A stretch of DNA of 64,000 bases. Source: an uncultured Pelagibacteraceae bacterium (GTDB lineage: Bacteria; Pseudomonadota; Alphaproteobacteria; Pelagibacterales; Pelagibacteraceae). The notes beneath the pieces were generated by a model. The model ran no database searches and was not told the DNA's origin. It saw only the letters and a list, made by a program, of their open reading frames with translations. Of this stretch, positions 10,221-16,368 are shown one piece after another. The translations under genes were made by a program, and so were the position numbers. The first letter of the stretch is position 1. The number at the start of each line of letters is the position of its first letter. The stretch lies in the NCBI GenBank assembly GCA_902620585.1, contig CACNJC010000004.1, positions 1-64,000 on the forward strand, read 5' to 3'.

Positions 10221-10793
10221 TTATTTTGGGGATCTTTTAGATAAAATTCTTTGGAGTGTCCTTCTATGCATTTTGAGTCTTCTAGCTGTTTCAGATACAT
10301 TACGGTTACATAATTCAAAAACTCTATGAATATGTTCCCATTTCACTCTGTCTGCGGACATTGGATTTTCTGGCGGTTTTGCTTTCGACTCAGGTGAAGC
10401 CAATAGTGCTGCTTCGACATCATCTGCATCCACAGGTTTAGCTATGTAATCTATAGCACCTGCCTTAACTGCCGCTACAGCAGTAGGTAAATTCCCGTAT
10501 CCGGTTAACATTACAATTCTACAATCTTGTTTATTTTTAGATAATTCTTTAACTACATCAATTCCACTTCCATCCTCTAGCCTAAGGTCTATAATAGCAA
10601 AGTTAGGAGGGCTATTTTTTACTATTTGAAGTCCCTCAGCCACATTTTTAGCCTCTTTTGGAAGAAAACCTTTCTTTTCCATGGCTCTTGAGAGCCTGCC
10701 CCGCAATGGATCGTCATCATCAAGGATAAGTAGAGACTTGTCGGAAAAATCCGACAGATTTAGTTGTTTTGGATAATTTTTTTGTGCTCTCAT
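10221..10793 (-). CDS. regA: RegA/PrrA/ActR-type photosynthetic/redox response regulator
   Basis: Receiver FAIIDLRLEDGSGIDVV, C-terminal Fis-type HTH CNRNVSETARRLKMHRRTLQRILSKRSPK. Confidence 0.92.
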   Translation of the reverse strand: MRAQKNYPKQLNLSDFSDKSLLILDDDDPLRGRLSRAMEKKGFLPKEAKNVAEGLQIVKNSPPNFAIIDLRLEDGSGIDVVKELSKNKQDCRIVMLTGYGNLPTAVAAVKAGAIDYIAKPVDADDVEAALLASPESKAKPPENPMSADRVKWEHIHRVFELCNRNVSETARRLKMHRRTLQRILSKRSPK

Positions 10794-10852
10794 ATGATGT
10801 TCATATAGTTATAAAATCCTGAATTACAATGTTTCAAAAGGGGTTTTTTTTC

Positions 10853-10867
10853 TTGACATAAAGTCAA
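10853..10867. promoter_or_regulatory. Perfect palindrome TTGAC-ATAAA-GTCAA in the divergent regA/decarboxylase intergenic region
   Basis: Read directly; lies between two divergent genes; includes a TTGACA -35-like hexamer. Confidence 0.45.
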
Positions 10868-10889
10868 AAACGCTTAAATGCGAATAAAT

Positions 10890-10951
10890 AAGGTTTTTTT
10901 TATACAAATTTTTTAAAAACCTTCTGTGTAAACTAACGAGGGACACATGAA
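10890..10951 (+). promoter_or_regulatory. Structured 5' leader of the polyamine operon (two potential hairpins, second with SD in its loop)
   Basis: AAGGTTTTT(10890-10898)/AAAAACCTT(10915-10923), then TGTGT(10925-10929)/ACACA(10943-10947) around AAACTAACGAGGG, next to the ATG at 10952. Confidence 0.45.
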
Positions 10952-12130
10952 ATGCGAAAATTTAAGAACGTTAACGAATTAGTTAATGAATTAAAACCAG
11001 ATTACCCCGTATACTGTATACGGCCAGAAGCGATAAAAAAATCCACAAAATTTTTCAAGGAAAATTTCCCAGGTAAGATTTTATACGCAGTCAAGACCAA
11101 TCCTAATGTTAAAGTCATTAAACAAATTATTTCAAATGAAATTGAAGATTTTGATGTAGCGTCTTTAAATGAAATTAAACTGATTAAAAAGATAAAACCT
11201 GATGCTAACTTATACTTTATGCACACTATTAAAAGCATCGAAAGTATTTCATCAGCATATTACGATTATGGAGTCAGAAATTTTGCATTAGATCATAAAG
11301 ATGAGCTTAGAAAAATTCTTGAAGCCACTAATCAAGCCAAAGATCTTAACTTATATGTAAGAATAGCTATTTCTAATGAGCATGCTGAAATTGACTTGTC
11401 GAGAAAATTTGGAGCCCTTCCAAATGAAGCTTTAGGCCTTGTAAGACTATGTAAAGACCACTCGAAAAAACTTGGGATAAGCTTTCATGTGGGTTCTCAA
11501 TGTATGCATAAAATATCTTATTCTAAAGGTATTAGTGAAATTGGAAATATCATTAAAAAAACTAAAATTATACCTGACGTAATAAATGTAGGAGGTGGTT
11601 TTCCATCAATTTATCCTGATCTTAATCCAGAACCAATTATTAATTATATTAACGAGATTAAGAGATCACTAAAAAATTTAAAATTAACAAAAACACCCCA
11701 AATCATTTGTGAACCCGGTAGAGCAATTGTCGCTGAAAGTGGTTCGACAATCGTTAAGGTGGTTTTAAGAAAAAAACAAAACCTGTATATAAATGATGGT
11801 ACTTATGGGTCCTTATTTGATGCGGGAGTTCCTAATTTTGTACTACCAAGCAAAATGATTACTAATGGCAGAGTACATTCAAAAAAATTAACACCATTTA
11901 GCTTCTTTGGCCCGACTTGCGATAGTATAGATTATATGAAGGGACCTTTTTTGTTACCAAATAATATTAAAGAAGGTGACTACATTGAGCTAGGGCAACT
12001 TGGAGCTTATGGATTGACTTTCAGAACAAAATTTAACGGTTTTTATTCAAATGCAATTTTTGAAATAAATGATAAACCAATAATGTCTTTATATGAAGAC
12101 TCAAGTAAAATTAATTACTTGGTTGCTTAA
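10952..12130 (+). CDS. Fold type III PLP-dependent ornithine/lysine/arginine decarboxylase family (ODC-like)
   Basis: YAVKTNP PLP-lysine motif, FDVASLNEI, HVGSQ, GGGFP, CEPGRAIVAESG, FFGPTCDSID, GAYGLTFRTKFNGF. Confidence 0.88.
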   Translation: MRKFKNVNELVNELKPDYPVYCIRPEAIKKSTKFFKENFPGKILYAVKTNPNVKVIKQIISNEIEDFDVASLNEIKLIKKIKPDANLYFMHTIKSIESISSAYYDYGVRNFALDHKDELRKILEATNQAKDLNLYVRIAISNEHAEIDLSRKFGALPNEALGLVRLCKDHSKKLGISFHVGSQCMHKISYSKGISEIGNIIKKTKIIPDVINVGGGFPSIYPDLNPEPIINYINEIKRSLKNLKLTKTPQIICEPGRAIVAESGSTIVKVVLRKKQNLYINDGTYGSLFDAGVPNFVLPSKMITNGRVHSKKLTPFSFFGPTCDSIDYMKGPFLLPNNIKEGDYIELGQLGAYGLTFRTKFNGFYSNAIFEINDKPIMSLYEDSSKINYLVA

Positions 12131-13176
12131 TGATAAAAAAAAATGGTCCTAAAATTGGACATAACAAGAAATCATTTTTAAATAGCCCCGTAGAACATAT
12201 TGATATTACTTCTTTTGACGCCAGAAAGATAATTGACGGTATGAGCAAAATGTCGTTCACATCAAGGGATACAGCAAAAGCAGCTAATATTTTTAATGAA
12301 ATGATATCAGATGAAAATTGTTCCATTTTTCTAACTATTGCTGGATCAACATCTGCTGGTGGTTGTATGAAATTGTATTCAGATTTAATCAAATATAATA
12401 TGGTTGATGCAGTAGTAGCTACTGGTGCCTCTATTATAGATATGGATTTTTTTGAGGCTTTAGGTTTTAAACACTATCAAGGATCTCAATTTCAAGATGA
12501 TACAGAACTTAGAAAAAACTATATTGACAGAATTTATGACACGTATATAGATGAAGAAGAACTACAAGCTTGTGATAAAGCTATTTGTGAGATTGCCAAT
12601 TCCCTTCAACCTAAACCTTATACTTCAAGAGAATTTATACTTGAATTAGGTAAGTATTTAAAAACAAAAGCTAAAAAAAAAGGCTCTCTTATTGAAACAG
12701 CTTTTGACAATGGTGTTCCAATTTTTTGCCCCGCTTTTACTGATAGTTCTGCAGGTTTTGGATTAGTTATGCATCAAGAAGAAAACCCTGATAAACATAT
12801 AACAATTGACTCAATTAGAGAAATGAGGGAATTAACCGAAATAAAAATTAAATCAAAACAGTCTGGCTTGCTAATGGTAGGTGGGGGGGTTCCTAAAAAT
12901 TTTATTCAAGACACAGTTGTATGTGCTGAACTATTAGGCAAACAAGTTGATATGCATAAGTATGCTATTCAAATTACTGTAGCTGACACAAGAGATGGAG
13001 CTTGCAGCAGTTCAACTTTAAAAGAAGCTAGTTCATGGGGAAAAGTAGATATTGCTAAGGAGCAAATGGTGTTTGCTGAAGCAACAAGTGTTTTACCTTT
13101 AATTGCGAGTGATGCATATCACCGTCAAAATTGGAAAAGTAGAGAAAAAAGAAATTTCCAAAAAATATTTAAATAA
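12130..13176 (+). CDS. Deoxyhypusine synthase-like protein (possible homospermidine-forming enzyme)
   Basis: LTIAGSTSAGGCMK, DNGVPIFCPAFTDSSAG, GGGVPKNFIQDT, and SSWGKVD retaining the DHS catalytic-lysine position (SWGK). Confidence 0.85.
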   Translation: MIKKNGPKIGHNKKSFLNSPVEHIDITSFDARKIIDGMSKMSFTSRDTAKAANIFNEMISDENCSIFLTIAGSTSAGGCMKLYSDLIKYNMVDAVVATGASIIDMDFFEALGFKHYQGSQFQDDTELRKNYIDRIYDTYIDEEELQACDKAICEIANSLQPKPYTSREFILELGKYLKTKAKKKGSLIETAFDNGVPIFCPAFTDSSAGFGLVMHQEENPDKHITIDSIREMRELTEIKIKSKQSGLLMVGGGVPKNFIQDTVVCAELLGKQVDMHKYAIQITVADTRDGACSSSTLKEASSWGKVDIAKEQMVFAEATSVLPLIASDAYHRQNWKSREKRNFQKIFK

Positions 13177-13177
13177 G

Positions 13178-14053
13178 ATGAAAAAGACGAGAGTAGCCTT
13201 GATACAGATGAAAATGTCATCTGAAAAAAAGAAAAATATAAATAACGCAATATCAAAAATATATAAAGCTAAAAAAAAAGGTGCAGAAATTATTTGTTTG
13301 CCAGAATTATTTTTAACAAATTATTTTTGTCAGACAGAAAAACACTCAAATTTTAATTTAGCAGAAAAGATTCCAGGACCGACCACTGATATGTTTTCTT
13401 TAATTGCTAAAAAGCTAAAAATAATACTCCTTTTATCTTTATTTGAGAAAAGAACTTCGGGTATTTATCATAATACTTGTGTAGTTATAAACGAGTATGG
13501 AAAAATAAAAGGCAAATATAGAAAAATGCATATACCAGATGATCCTCAATATTATGAAAAATTTTACTTTACCCCTGGAGATCTTGGTTTTAGATCCTTT
13601 AAAACCTCAAAAGGTAACTTAGGAACTTTAATTTGTTGGGATCAATGGTTTCCTGAAGCTGCAAGATTAACAGCTTTGAAAGGAGCAGAGATACTTTTTT
13701 ATCCAACAGCAATAGGCTGGCATCCAAAAGAAAAGAAAAAATTTGGAAAAACCCAGCTTGACTCATGGTTGTCAGTCCAGCGATCTCATGCGATAGCTAA
13801 TGGTGTATATGTTGCTGCTATAAATAGAATCGGTATAGAAAAACAAGGCTCGAAGAAATTAGAATTTTGGGGTAATAGCGTTATATTTGATCCAAGCGGA
13901 AATATTATTAAAAAAGCAAGTTTAGCTGAAAAAATTATTATTTGTGATATAGATTTTAAAAAGATAGAAAATGTAAGAAGACATTGGCCATTTTTTAGAG
14001 ATAGAAGAATAGATTATTATAAAGGTATATTGAAAAATCCTAAAGATGCTTAA
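13178..14053 (+). CDS. aguB: N-carbamoylputrescine amidase (nitrilase superfamily)
   Basis: Start reassigned to ATG 13178 (ORF track starts at 13103 inside the previous gene). E-K-C nitrilase residues: CLPELFLTNYFC, KYRKMHIPDDPQYYEKFYFTPGD, LICWDQWFPEAARL. Confidence 0.9.
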   Translation: MKKTRVALIQMKMSSEKKKNINNAISKIYKAKKKGAEIICLPELFLTNYFCQTEKHSNFNLAEKIPGPTTDMFSLIAKKLKIILLLSLFEKRTSGIYHNTCVVINEYGKIKGKYRKMHIPDDPQYYEKFYFTPGDLGFRSFKTSKGNLGTLICWDQWFPEAARLTALKGAEILFYPTAIGWHPKEKKKFGKTQLDSWLSVQRSHAIANGVYVAAINRIGIEKQGSKKLEFWGNSVIFDPSGNIIKKASLAEKIIICDIDFKKIENVRRHWPFFRDRRIDYYKGILKNPKDA

Positions 14054-15092
14054 AGATTCTAAAGATCTTAACTATAGGATGCCTGCCGAGTGGGAAAAGC
14101 AAAAGTCTACTTGGATAGCCTGGCCACATAATAAAAAAGATTGGCCTAATAAGTTTAAATTTATACCATTTGTTTTTTGTGAGATAATTTCCAAAATCTC
14201 AAATTACCAGAAGGTTAATATTCTTATAGAAAAAAAATCAATTAAAAAACATATAAATTTATTTTTAAAAAAATATTTTATTAATACCAATAATATAAAC
14301 TTTAGAATTTGTAAGACAAATAGAGCATGGCTTAGAGACTCTTTCCCCATTTTTGTTAAAAATAAGAATAACCAAAAAGTCTTGGTAGATTGGGGTTTTA
14401 ATGGATGGGCAAAATATAAAAATTTTGACCATGATAATAAGATATGTACTAAAATAAAGAATTATGTTCGTTTAAGTTCCATAACTCCAACTATAAAAAA
14501 TAAAAGAATAATCTTGGAAGGAGGATCCATAGACGTTAACGGCAAAGGAGTTCTTTTAACAACTCGTGAATGTTTACAAAGTAATATACAAGTCCGAAAT
14601 CCCGGCCTTAAAAAAAAAGAATATGAATACATATTTAAAAAATATTTAGGAATTAAAGAAGTTTTGTGGCTTAATAAAGGAATTGCAGGTGATGACACTC
14701 ATGGCCATATAGATGATATTGCAAGATTTGTAAGTGAAAAAAAAATTTTTTTAGCGCATGAAAGTAATAGAAATGACATTAACTACAAACCATTAAAAGA
14801 GAACTATGAAATTTTAAAGAAATCGATAAAAACAAAACAAATAAAAATTATCAAAATTCCAATGCCTAAAGCAAAATATATTAATGGAATAAGAGTTCCA
14901 GCTACTTATCTAAACTTCTATATTGCAAATAGAATAGTTTTGGTTCCCATTTTCAATGACTACAAAGATAAAATGGTAATTAAAATTTTTAAAAAACATT
15001 TTAAAAATAAAAAGATTATTCCGATAGATTGTTCTTTATTAATTTGGGGATTCGGAGCAATACATTGTATAACTCAACAAGAGCCTAGTTAA
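14046..15092 (+). CDS. aguA: Agmatine deiminase
   Basis: MPAEWEKQKSTWIAWPHN, RAWLRDSFPIFV, LEGGSIDVNGKG, GFGAIHCITQQEP. Confidence 0.94.
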   Translation: MLKDSKDLNYRMPAEWEKQKSTWIAWPHNKKDWPNKFKFIPFVFCEIISKISNYQKVNILIEKKSIKKHINLFLKKYFINTNNINFRICKTNRAWLRDSFPIFVKNKNNQKVLVDWGFNGWAKYKNFDHDNKICTKIKNYVRLSSITPTIKNKRIILEGGSIDVNGKGVLLTTRECLQSNIQVRNPGLKKKEYEYIFKKYLGIKEVLWLNKGIAGDDTHGHIDDIARFVSEKKIFLAHESNRNDINYKPLKENYEILKKSIKTKQIKIIKIPMPKAKYINGIRVPATYLNFYIANRIVLVPIFNDYKDKMVIKIFKKHFKNKKIIPIDCSLLIWGFGAIHCITQQEPS

Positions 15093-16368
15093 TTAAATCT
15101 CTTAAATTCCACTTGACTCTCACTGTAGCCCCATTTTTATTTCTATCATTTAAAAAATAAAGCTTGGCTCCACGTCTTTCTAAGAGAGTTTTACCTAAAA
15201 AGGTTCCTAAACCAGTTCCTGCATTACTATTAATTTGAAAAGATTTAGATTTAATATAGGGTTCTCCTAATATTTCTATGATATCGTCTGGAAAACCTGG
15301 GCCATCATCTTTAATTAATATTTCAATATTTTTTTCATTACTTGATAAGATTACTTCAACTTTACTTTTAGAAAATTTAACTGCGTTACCTAGGAAATTT
15401 CTCAAACCGTAAATTATTTCCGGTGATCTTTGAAAAGAAAATTTATTTTTATCTTCCTTCAAGATCAATTTTATATTTTTTGAGGAAGATTCTTTAAATG
15501 ATGAGATTACCTCACTAAGTAAATCTTCAAATTTAGTTTTAGAGAAAAATTCATCATCTTTGATTTGTTTTTTTGAAATTTTTTTTAAAATTTCACCACA
15601 TCTCTTTGTTTGGCTAACTAATAAATCGATATCTTTAGAATGTTCACTACTATTTCCAAGTTCTTTTTTGAGCTCTGACGCAACTACACTTATTGTTGCC
15701 AATGGTGTTCCCAGTGAATGTGCTGCCGCTGCTGCTTGTCCTCCAAGAGACTCTAACTCGTACTCTTTTGCTATTACTTGTTGTAATTTAGTTACTGCAT
15801 CAGATCTTCTTTTGCTTTCACCAGAAAATCTGATTCCAAAGTAACATAAAAATATCAAGCAAACAATAATTGCCAAAAAATAACCAACTAAATAAAATTT
15901 AGGAAAAGTAAAAGAGTTGTCATGTATTCCAGGCAATGGATAATGAAAAATAGTTAAAGAAAATAAAAAAATAACAGTTAAGATGCCTAATATCATAGTC
16001 GTTCCCATACTTAAAAACGTAGATGAAACTATCGCCGGCACAATGATTAAAATTGAAAATGGATTTGAAATACCACCCGTTAAATAAAGTAATGCTGACA
16101 ACTGTATCAAATCATATACTAAGAATATACTGGCATATAAGTCCTTCAAAATAACAGATTTTATAGTAAACTGAAGGTAGACATTAGTTAATATTCCTAT
16201 AAATAAAATTAAATATGTAATTAGAACTAGGAAATCTAATTTTAGATAAAAATATACTAAATTAATTGCTGTAAACTGGCCTATTATTGCTATCCATCTT
16301 AAAATGACTAAGGTTTTTCTATCTAAATTGAGGTTTTCTCCCAACCTGAAGAGAGTAGAAAAATTCAT
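15085..16368 (-). CDS. regB: RegB/PrrB/ActS-type redox sensor histidine kinase
   Basis: Six-TM-like N-terminus with quinone-site motif GGISNPF, H-box AAAAAHSLGTPLATI, Cys in SQTKRCGEILKKIS. Confidence 0.92.
   Translation of the reverse strand: MNFSTLFRLGENLNLDRKTLVILRWIAIIGQFTAINLVYFYLKLDFLVLITYLILFIGILTNVYLQFTIKSVILKDLYASIFLVYDLIQLSALLYLTGGISNPFSILIIVPAIVSSTFLSMGTTMILGILTVIFLFSLTIFHYPLPGIHDNSFTFPKFYLVGYFLAIIVCLIFLCYFGIRFSGESKRRSDAVTKLQQVIAKEYELESLGGQAAAAAHSLGTPLATISVVASELKKELGNSSEHSKDIDLLVSQTKRCGEILKKISKKQIKDDEFFSKTKFEDLLSEVISSFKESSSKNIKLILKEDKNKFSFQRSPEIIYGLRNFLGNAVKFSKSKVEVILSSNEKNIEILIKDDGPGFPDDIIEILGEPYIKSKSFQINSNAGTGLGTFLGKTLLERRGAKLYFLNDRNKNGATVRVKWNLRDLIN

Follow-up and report, generated by a model that had tools for sequence, protein, structure and literature searches.

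Caldomycin synthase (CdmS) of Thermus, a deoxyhypusine synthase (DHS)-like enzyme, couples agmatine only and thereby forms caldomycin, 1,9-bis(guanidino)-5-azanonane (PMC10981699). A cluster of genes for an arginine decarboxylase (ADC), a DHS-like enzyme, NCPAH and AIH is already in the literature for Candidatus Fonsibacter (PMC9992855), and so is an equivalent gene set proposed for Zymomonas (PMC8594446). In this study, we analyzed positions 1 to 64,000 of contig CACNJC010000004.1 (assembly GCA_902620585.1) from an uncultured Pelagibacteraceae bacterium, a stretch referred to below as the window. It contains a cluster of four plus-strand genes, encoding a decarboxylase, a DHS-like enzyme, AguB and AguA, between the separated genes regA and regB; the genome assembly is alphaproteobacterial, 0.96 Mb in size and 85% complete. 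Its small size, AT-rich composition and gene content, together with the clusters known from Fonsibacter and Pelagibacter, suggest a SAR11-like organism. What this analysis adds is evidence, drawn from sequence comparison, that the coupling enzyme of the cluster probably joins agmatine, giving AguA and AguB a probable new substrate.

The DHS-like enzyme (12130-13176, plus strand; PF01916) scored 570 bits against the NCBIfam model NF002699 (cut-off 500) and 192 bits against the SpeY model NF001980 (cut-off 450). The corresponding scores were 541 and 227 bits for a Thermus CdmS orthologue (L182), and 150 and 592 bits for a SpeY-type protein of Nostoc (L232). The window enzyme also remained below the cut-offs of every DHS model, and the positions of the active-site residues Asp243 and Asp316 of human DHS are occupied by F and C. 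Seven active-site residues have been named in Thermus CdmS (S67, E136, D143, F204, L286, E293 and K299), of which K299 is the catalytic lysine, S67, E136, D143 and E293 are the proposed guanidine binders, and F204 and L286 stand where human DHS has D243 and D316 (PMC10981699). Their equivalents in the window enzyme all lie at one constant offset (S73, E142, D149, F210, C292, E299 and K305), so that six of the seven are identical to CdmS; this residue alignment was confirmed by two Thermus sequences (L182 and L185). Across 120 family sequences, F210 is kept in 118 and the other five shared residues never vary; at position 292, C is found in every one of the 40 alphaproteobacterial sequences and in 11 others, and L in the remaining 69. 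By eye, S73, E142 and F210 correspond to A, Y and M in the Nostoc SpeY-type protein. The difference between L286 and C was also considered as a discriminator and was dropped, because the Nostoc protein carries L there too. In the phylogenetic tree, the window enzyme fell inside a clade of 33 rows (support 100/100), within a family of 102 rows that includes Thermus and is split from SpeY (99/95), with both outgroup rows on very long branches.

Judged by model scores, residues and tree, the DHS-like enzyme belongs to the caldomycin synthase family, not to the putrescine-type SpeY family, and it is most likely a CdmS-type caldomycin synthase. An earlier note on this DNA had rightly pointed out that the enzyme keeps the lysine of its SWGK motif, which is K305, but had it probably joining aminobutyl groups, whereas it falls in the agmatine-coupling family instead.

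The NF002699-type family spans many phyla, DPANN archaea among them. DHS proteins that share the clade of the alphaproteobacterial enzymes, 65-68% identical to that of the window, were observed in Micrarchaeota (L188, L199 and L209) and in Syntrophaceae/Smithellaceae (L196, L201, L212, L213 and L219), a distribution that suggests transfer between phyla. In addition, the genome of Nostoc sp. CHAB 5715 (G620) encodes both a CdmS-type (L141) and a SpeY-type (L232) homologue, and the two pathways may coexist separately in one genome. A further CdmS-type gene lies beside rocD, feoAB and hypB on the conjugative plasmid A of Trichormus variabilis (L099, 7998-9041). A tblastn search of plasmids with a SpeY-like N-terminus as query gave no matches.

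We propose, with moderate confidence, that the operon converts arginine via agmatine and caldomycin to sym-homospermidine, with AguA and AguB acting last, which reverses the published order. The decarboxylase would turn L-arginine into agmatine, as shown for purified SAR11 homologues. The DHS-like enzyme, with NAD and K305, would then join two agmatine molecules to give caldomycin, as its family and active-site residues suggest. Finally, AguA would deiminate both guanidine ends and AguB would hydrolyse the resulting ureas to release homospermidine, a step that the SpeB ureohydrolase encoded in the same slot of sister genomes would perform there. AguA and AguB may also convert some agmatine to putrescine for a SpeE-like enzyme. 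We give an even chance to the broader claim that, across SAR11 and other alphaproteobacteria, caldomycin and not mainly agmatine is what AguA/AguB-type enzymes act on, with SpeB as an interchangeable alternative. Agmatine as the DHS substrate fits three sets of observations, namely the co-occurrence of the enzyme with guanidine-removing proteins (see below), the feeding of SAR11 with spermidine and the clustering of ADC-type speD genes. When SAR11 cultures received excess spermidine, putrescine rose in HTCC7211 and homospermidine did not rise significantly, which the authors took to mean that homospermidine (HSD) synthesis is not the primary role of Dys2 (PMC8437039). Another study reported that pyruvoyl-type ADC (speD) genes mostly cluster with genes labelled "speY" there, and those of the ornithine decarboxylase (ODC) type with other routes (PMC10407285). 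A complete route from arginine to a polyamine had been suggested before; its start from arginine is supported and homospermidine is its likely product, but the joining of aminobutyl groups as then written is not supported.

The two proteins assigned to the last step were identified at the family level. AguB, an N-carbamoylputrescine amidase-like carbon-nitrogen hydrolase (13178-14053, plus strand; PF00795), reached 299 bits on TIGR03381, below the equivalog cut-off of 410. AguA, a guanidine deiminase of the agmatine deiminase family (14046-15092, plus strand), was recognized by PF04371 (357 bits, cut-off passed) and reached 248 bits on TIGR03380 (cut-off 382); its nearest solved relative is 1xkn (308 bits). 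The AguA proteins of four other CdmS genomes likewise remained below the equivalog cut-off, and such scores would allow another substrate without demonstrating one. Among the 386 genomes of the class sample, 24 exceeded the NF002699 cut-off, and every one of these alphaproteobacteria encodes a guanidine-removing family: 13 have a PF00491 protein encoded immediately behind the DHS gene (no more than 117 bp between the matches) and no AguA, and 11, the window genome included, have AguA. AguA matches by themselves were found in 123 of the 386 genomes (about a third). No PF00491 protein was detected in the four genomes of the genus with AguB-AguA that were checked, that of the window included, which leaves AguA and AguB as the sole candidates found to open caldomycin, if it is made there. 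An exclusive tie between the AguA subfamily of the window and CdmS was rejected, as similar AguA proteins (35-45%) are present in genomes without a CdmS-type match (for example, G126, G273, G428, G232 and G334).

The packing of the four plus-strand genes, bracketed by a divergent regA and a convergent regB, was confirmed to the base, junctions included. The decarboxylase and DHS-like genes meet in TAATG at 12128-12132, a single nucleotide separates the DHS-like stop (13176) from the AguB ATG (13178), and overlaps of 8 nt join AguB to AguA and, convergently, AguA to regB. On the minus strand, regA (10221-10793) encodes a redox response regulator of the ActR/PrrA/RegA family (NF033791, 301 bits, cut-off 250), and regB (15085-16368) encodes a sensor kinase of the ActS/PrrB/RegB family (NF033792, 431 bits, cut-off 350). 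Both thus exceed their NCBIfam cut-offs, and all Pfam-level assignments in the cluster are firm.

In the genus, 33 of 37 genomes gave a DHS match (counting that of the window), as against none of 24 genomes (G037-G060) from a different family of the order. The gene order regA-decarboxylase-DHS-X-regB recurs at every one of the 17 loci fetched from the genus, with the fetched stretches of L083 and L098 starting close to regA; where the contig extends far enough, polA-ABC-bioY and gyrB-dnaN-dnaA lie on either side. Slot X holds AguB and AguA in seven of these loci and a single agmatinase-family ureohydrolase (SpeB, about 293 aa) in ten, and in no case both or neither; the AguB search at the loci covered those of alphaproteobacteria. 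In another genus of the family (L069 and L072), the SpeB version lies between regA and regB, so that the bracketing, whose conservation the earlier note had left to be checked, is not unique to this contig. In a third genus (L063 and L067), the SpeB version adjoins regA and regB is not adjacent. When mapped on a tree of RegA, decarboxylase and DHS, the content of slot X required a minimum of four changes, of which three are forced by well-supported branches, so that at least three exchanges are secure; the closest relatives of the window by these proteins comprise carriers of either version (AguB-AguA in L082 and L083, SpeB in L085 and L086). Two unrelated guanidine-removal routes are thus exchanged in one operon slot.

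Two further observations concern these relatives. In one member of the genus (G032, 85% complete), in-frame stops interrupt the DHS match, which falls into three pieces (C15:27086-28125), and an AguA match is absent, reflecting either a decayed gene or assembly errors. Some relatives encode a second ureohydrolase elsewhere (L101-L103, in G005, G327 and G246); that of L103 scores above the cut-off of the agmatinase subfamily model (NF002564, 314 bits), which the two operon SpeB proteins tested do not reach.

Several points weigh against an order in which agmatine is coupled first. The activity assigned to the alphaproteobacterial clade is extrapolated from the Thermus enzymes, to which identity is only about 55%, the action of AguA and AguB on caldomycin is presumed, and the roles of the CdmS residues come from a docking model in the source paper (PMC10981699). 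The position of CdmS L286 is C throughout the alphaproteobacterial clade (40/40), although it is not Asp either. Conversion of agmatine to putrescine before coupling likewise predicts co-occurrence with AguA or SpeB, so the count of 24/24 argues only against an ornithine-fed enzyme. Furthermore, a SpeE-like gene elsewhere in the window genome (G000:C8) suggests that some putrescine is probably needed too. It is possible, if less likely, that ADC and either AguA and AguB or SpeB take arginine through agmatine and N-carbamoylputrescine to putrescine, two molecules of which a SpeY-type DHS would couple. This is how the pathway is drawn in the study of Fonsibacter and Pelagibacter (PMC9992855), and the Zymomonas study proposes it as well (PMC8594446); this order leaves AguA and AguB their accepted reactions and explains the joint presence of ADC, AguA/AguB and DHS equally well. 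However, the DHS lies outside the SpeY subfamily, with CdmS residues at the positions that differ, and the available text of these two reports contained no assay of the DHS step. An agmatine-processing family is present in all 24 genomes, even though ornithine is the source of putrescine in most alphaproteobacteria (PMC9992855), and little homospermidine appeared in SAR11 when spermidine and putrescine were raised (PMC8437039). We consider it unlikely that the enzyme is promiscuous and takes a butyl unit from any of agmatine, putrescine and spermidine and passes it to whatever amine is present, with AguA and AguB mainly supplying putrescine for spermidine. The presence of the SpeE-like gene agrees with this possibility, as do the description of DHS-family homospermidine synthases as promiscuous and the rise of both spermidine and homospermidine in HTCC7211 fed with norspermidine (PMC8437039); on the other hand, agmatine is the sole substrate of Thermus CdmS (PMC10981699), and none of the 120 sequences departs from the residues assigned to the two guanidine ends.

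The first enzyme is an alanine-racemase-fold pyridoxal phosphate-dependent decarboxylase (10952-12130, plus strand; PF02784/PF00278). Among solved structures, those closest to it are lysine/ornithine decarboxylases and the chlorovirus ADC, and its top NCBIfam match by score is lysA, albeit at 130 bits against a cut-off of 298, so that a diaminopimelate (DAP) or ornithine decarboxylase had to be considered; we regard this as very improbable. The specificity segment reads NDGTYGSLFDAG, at a position that we take to carry Asp332 in ODC and Glu296 in the chlorovirus ADC. No ODC-type Asp332 was found in the aligned segment of the window enzyme, and the core FDA is kept in all 38 aligned linked decarboxylases. 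Exactly two PF02784 proteins were present in 10 of 11 genomes checked, the operon enzyme and a separate, probable LysA of about 410 aa; in the window genome the operon enzyme is the only one detected, probably because the assembly is incomplete. Purified homologues from Pelagibacter and Fonsibacter decarboxylate arginine only and are inactive on ornithine and lysine (PMC9992855). In the comparison made, with the enzyme of a neighbouring genus of the family, the window decarboxylase is 67-68% identical and has the same segment. Given the arginine-only homologues, the separate LysA-like protein and the missing Asp332 motif, it is very likely an ADC; of the two substrates named in the earlier note, arginine is thus upheld, and ornithine, like DAP, is not. 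An exclusive link of the decarboxylase to CdmS genomes was rejected, since the ranking of its matches fails to separate them.

Upstream of the decarboxylase, an alignment of 18 loci of the genus revealed a conserved promoter-like and leader region (10853-10949, plus strand; 10852-10957 in its widest extent). It comprises a TTGACA-like box, a hairpin of 8-10 bp (AAGGTTTTT...AAAAACCTT) and a TGTGT...ACACA inverted repeat around the ribosome-binding site. The hairpin, with a T-rich/A-rich stem, folds in all 18 sequences and shows compensated stem changes in L093, L097 and L098; it was found by folding each leader individually, the RNAalifold consensus being misregistered. Rfam gave no riboswitch or known RNA match in this region, folded as a single sequence, the leader has an unremarkable energy (z -0.78), and sigma-70-like and terminator-like matches are at chance level. 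In another frame, 11 codons (MKCENLRTLTN, 10947-10982) start 5 bases upstream of the decarboxylase ATG; the ATG of this short frame is kept in all 18 leaders of the genus and not in L063, and the frame could be a leader peptide or a chance occurrence. Adjacency alone makes control of the polyamine genes by RegA a possibility. That RegB and RegA regulate the cluster directly as a redox-controlled unit, and that it lies between their genes for this reason, seems unlikely to us. The layout is conserved across the genus and in a second genus, the gap between regA and the decarboxylase gene has a constant length with a conserved leader, and the Zymomonas decarboxylase homologue drops sharply on oxygen exposure and ammonium loss (PMC8594446). 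By contrast, the third genus keeps the cluster next to regA with regB not adjacent, and, as regA and regB share the minus strand, the cluster may owe its position to nothing more than an insertion between them.

SAR11 bacteria rank with the most abundant cells of the ocean, and the transport and metabolism of polyamines have a prominent place in their biology. Coupling of agmatine as the first event would allow homospermidine to be formed with no pool of putrescine; it would also mean that the putrescine-first schemes published for SAR11 and Zymomonas, and the "SpeY" label given to many ADC-linked clusters, have to be corrected. As the family occurs in many phyla, this correction would extend to many annotated bacterial "deoxyhypusine synthases". 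Caldomycin does not react with o-phthalaldehyde (PMC10981699), so that a key intermediate would evade the usual amine-labelling assays, which could explain why caldomycin has not been sought outside Thermus.

Compared with known systems, the window cluster has the same four enzyme families as the ADC-DHS/SpeY-NCPAH-AIH cluster of Ca. Fonsibacter ubiquis, whose ADC is arginine-specific. The published reading of that cluster is putrescine-first with the DHS named SpeY, and the available part of the report mentions no regA/regB setting (PMC9992855), in contrast to the bracket found here. In Zymomonas mobilis, where homospermidine is the main polyamine, the decarboxylase and DHS-like genes share one operon (ZMO1020/ZMO1019) and AguA and AguB are encoded in a second (ZMO1369/ZMO1370), the order proposed there being putrescine-first and unconfirmed (PMC8594446). 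Cyanobacterial SpeY (Anabaena type, NF001980) shares the PF01916 fold family and catalytic lysine and also yields homospermidine, but it forms a separate subfamily with other residues at the S73, E142 and F210 positions and is described as using putrescine. The ADC-AIH-NCPAH-HSS pathway of chlorovirus PBCV-1 likewise leads from arginine to homospermidine with an ODC-derived ADC and AguA/AguB; however, its HSS is unrelated, and in its ADC the Asp332 of ODC is replaced by Glu, the window enzyme having neither residue there. The CdmS/TtSpeBap route of Thermus thermophilus has a DHS-like enzyme that belongs to the same NCBIfam family and agrees with the window enzyme at six of the seven named active-site residues, and it removes the guanidines by an agmatinase-type ureohydrolase (PMC10981699), whereas the slot in the window holds AguB-AguA. 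The window enzyme further differs from Thermus CdmS in having C for L at position 286 and in standing in an operon with a fold-III ADC, outside the thermophiles.

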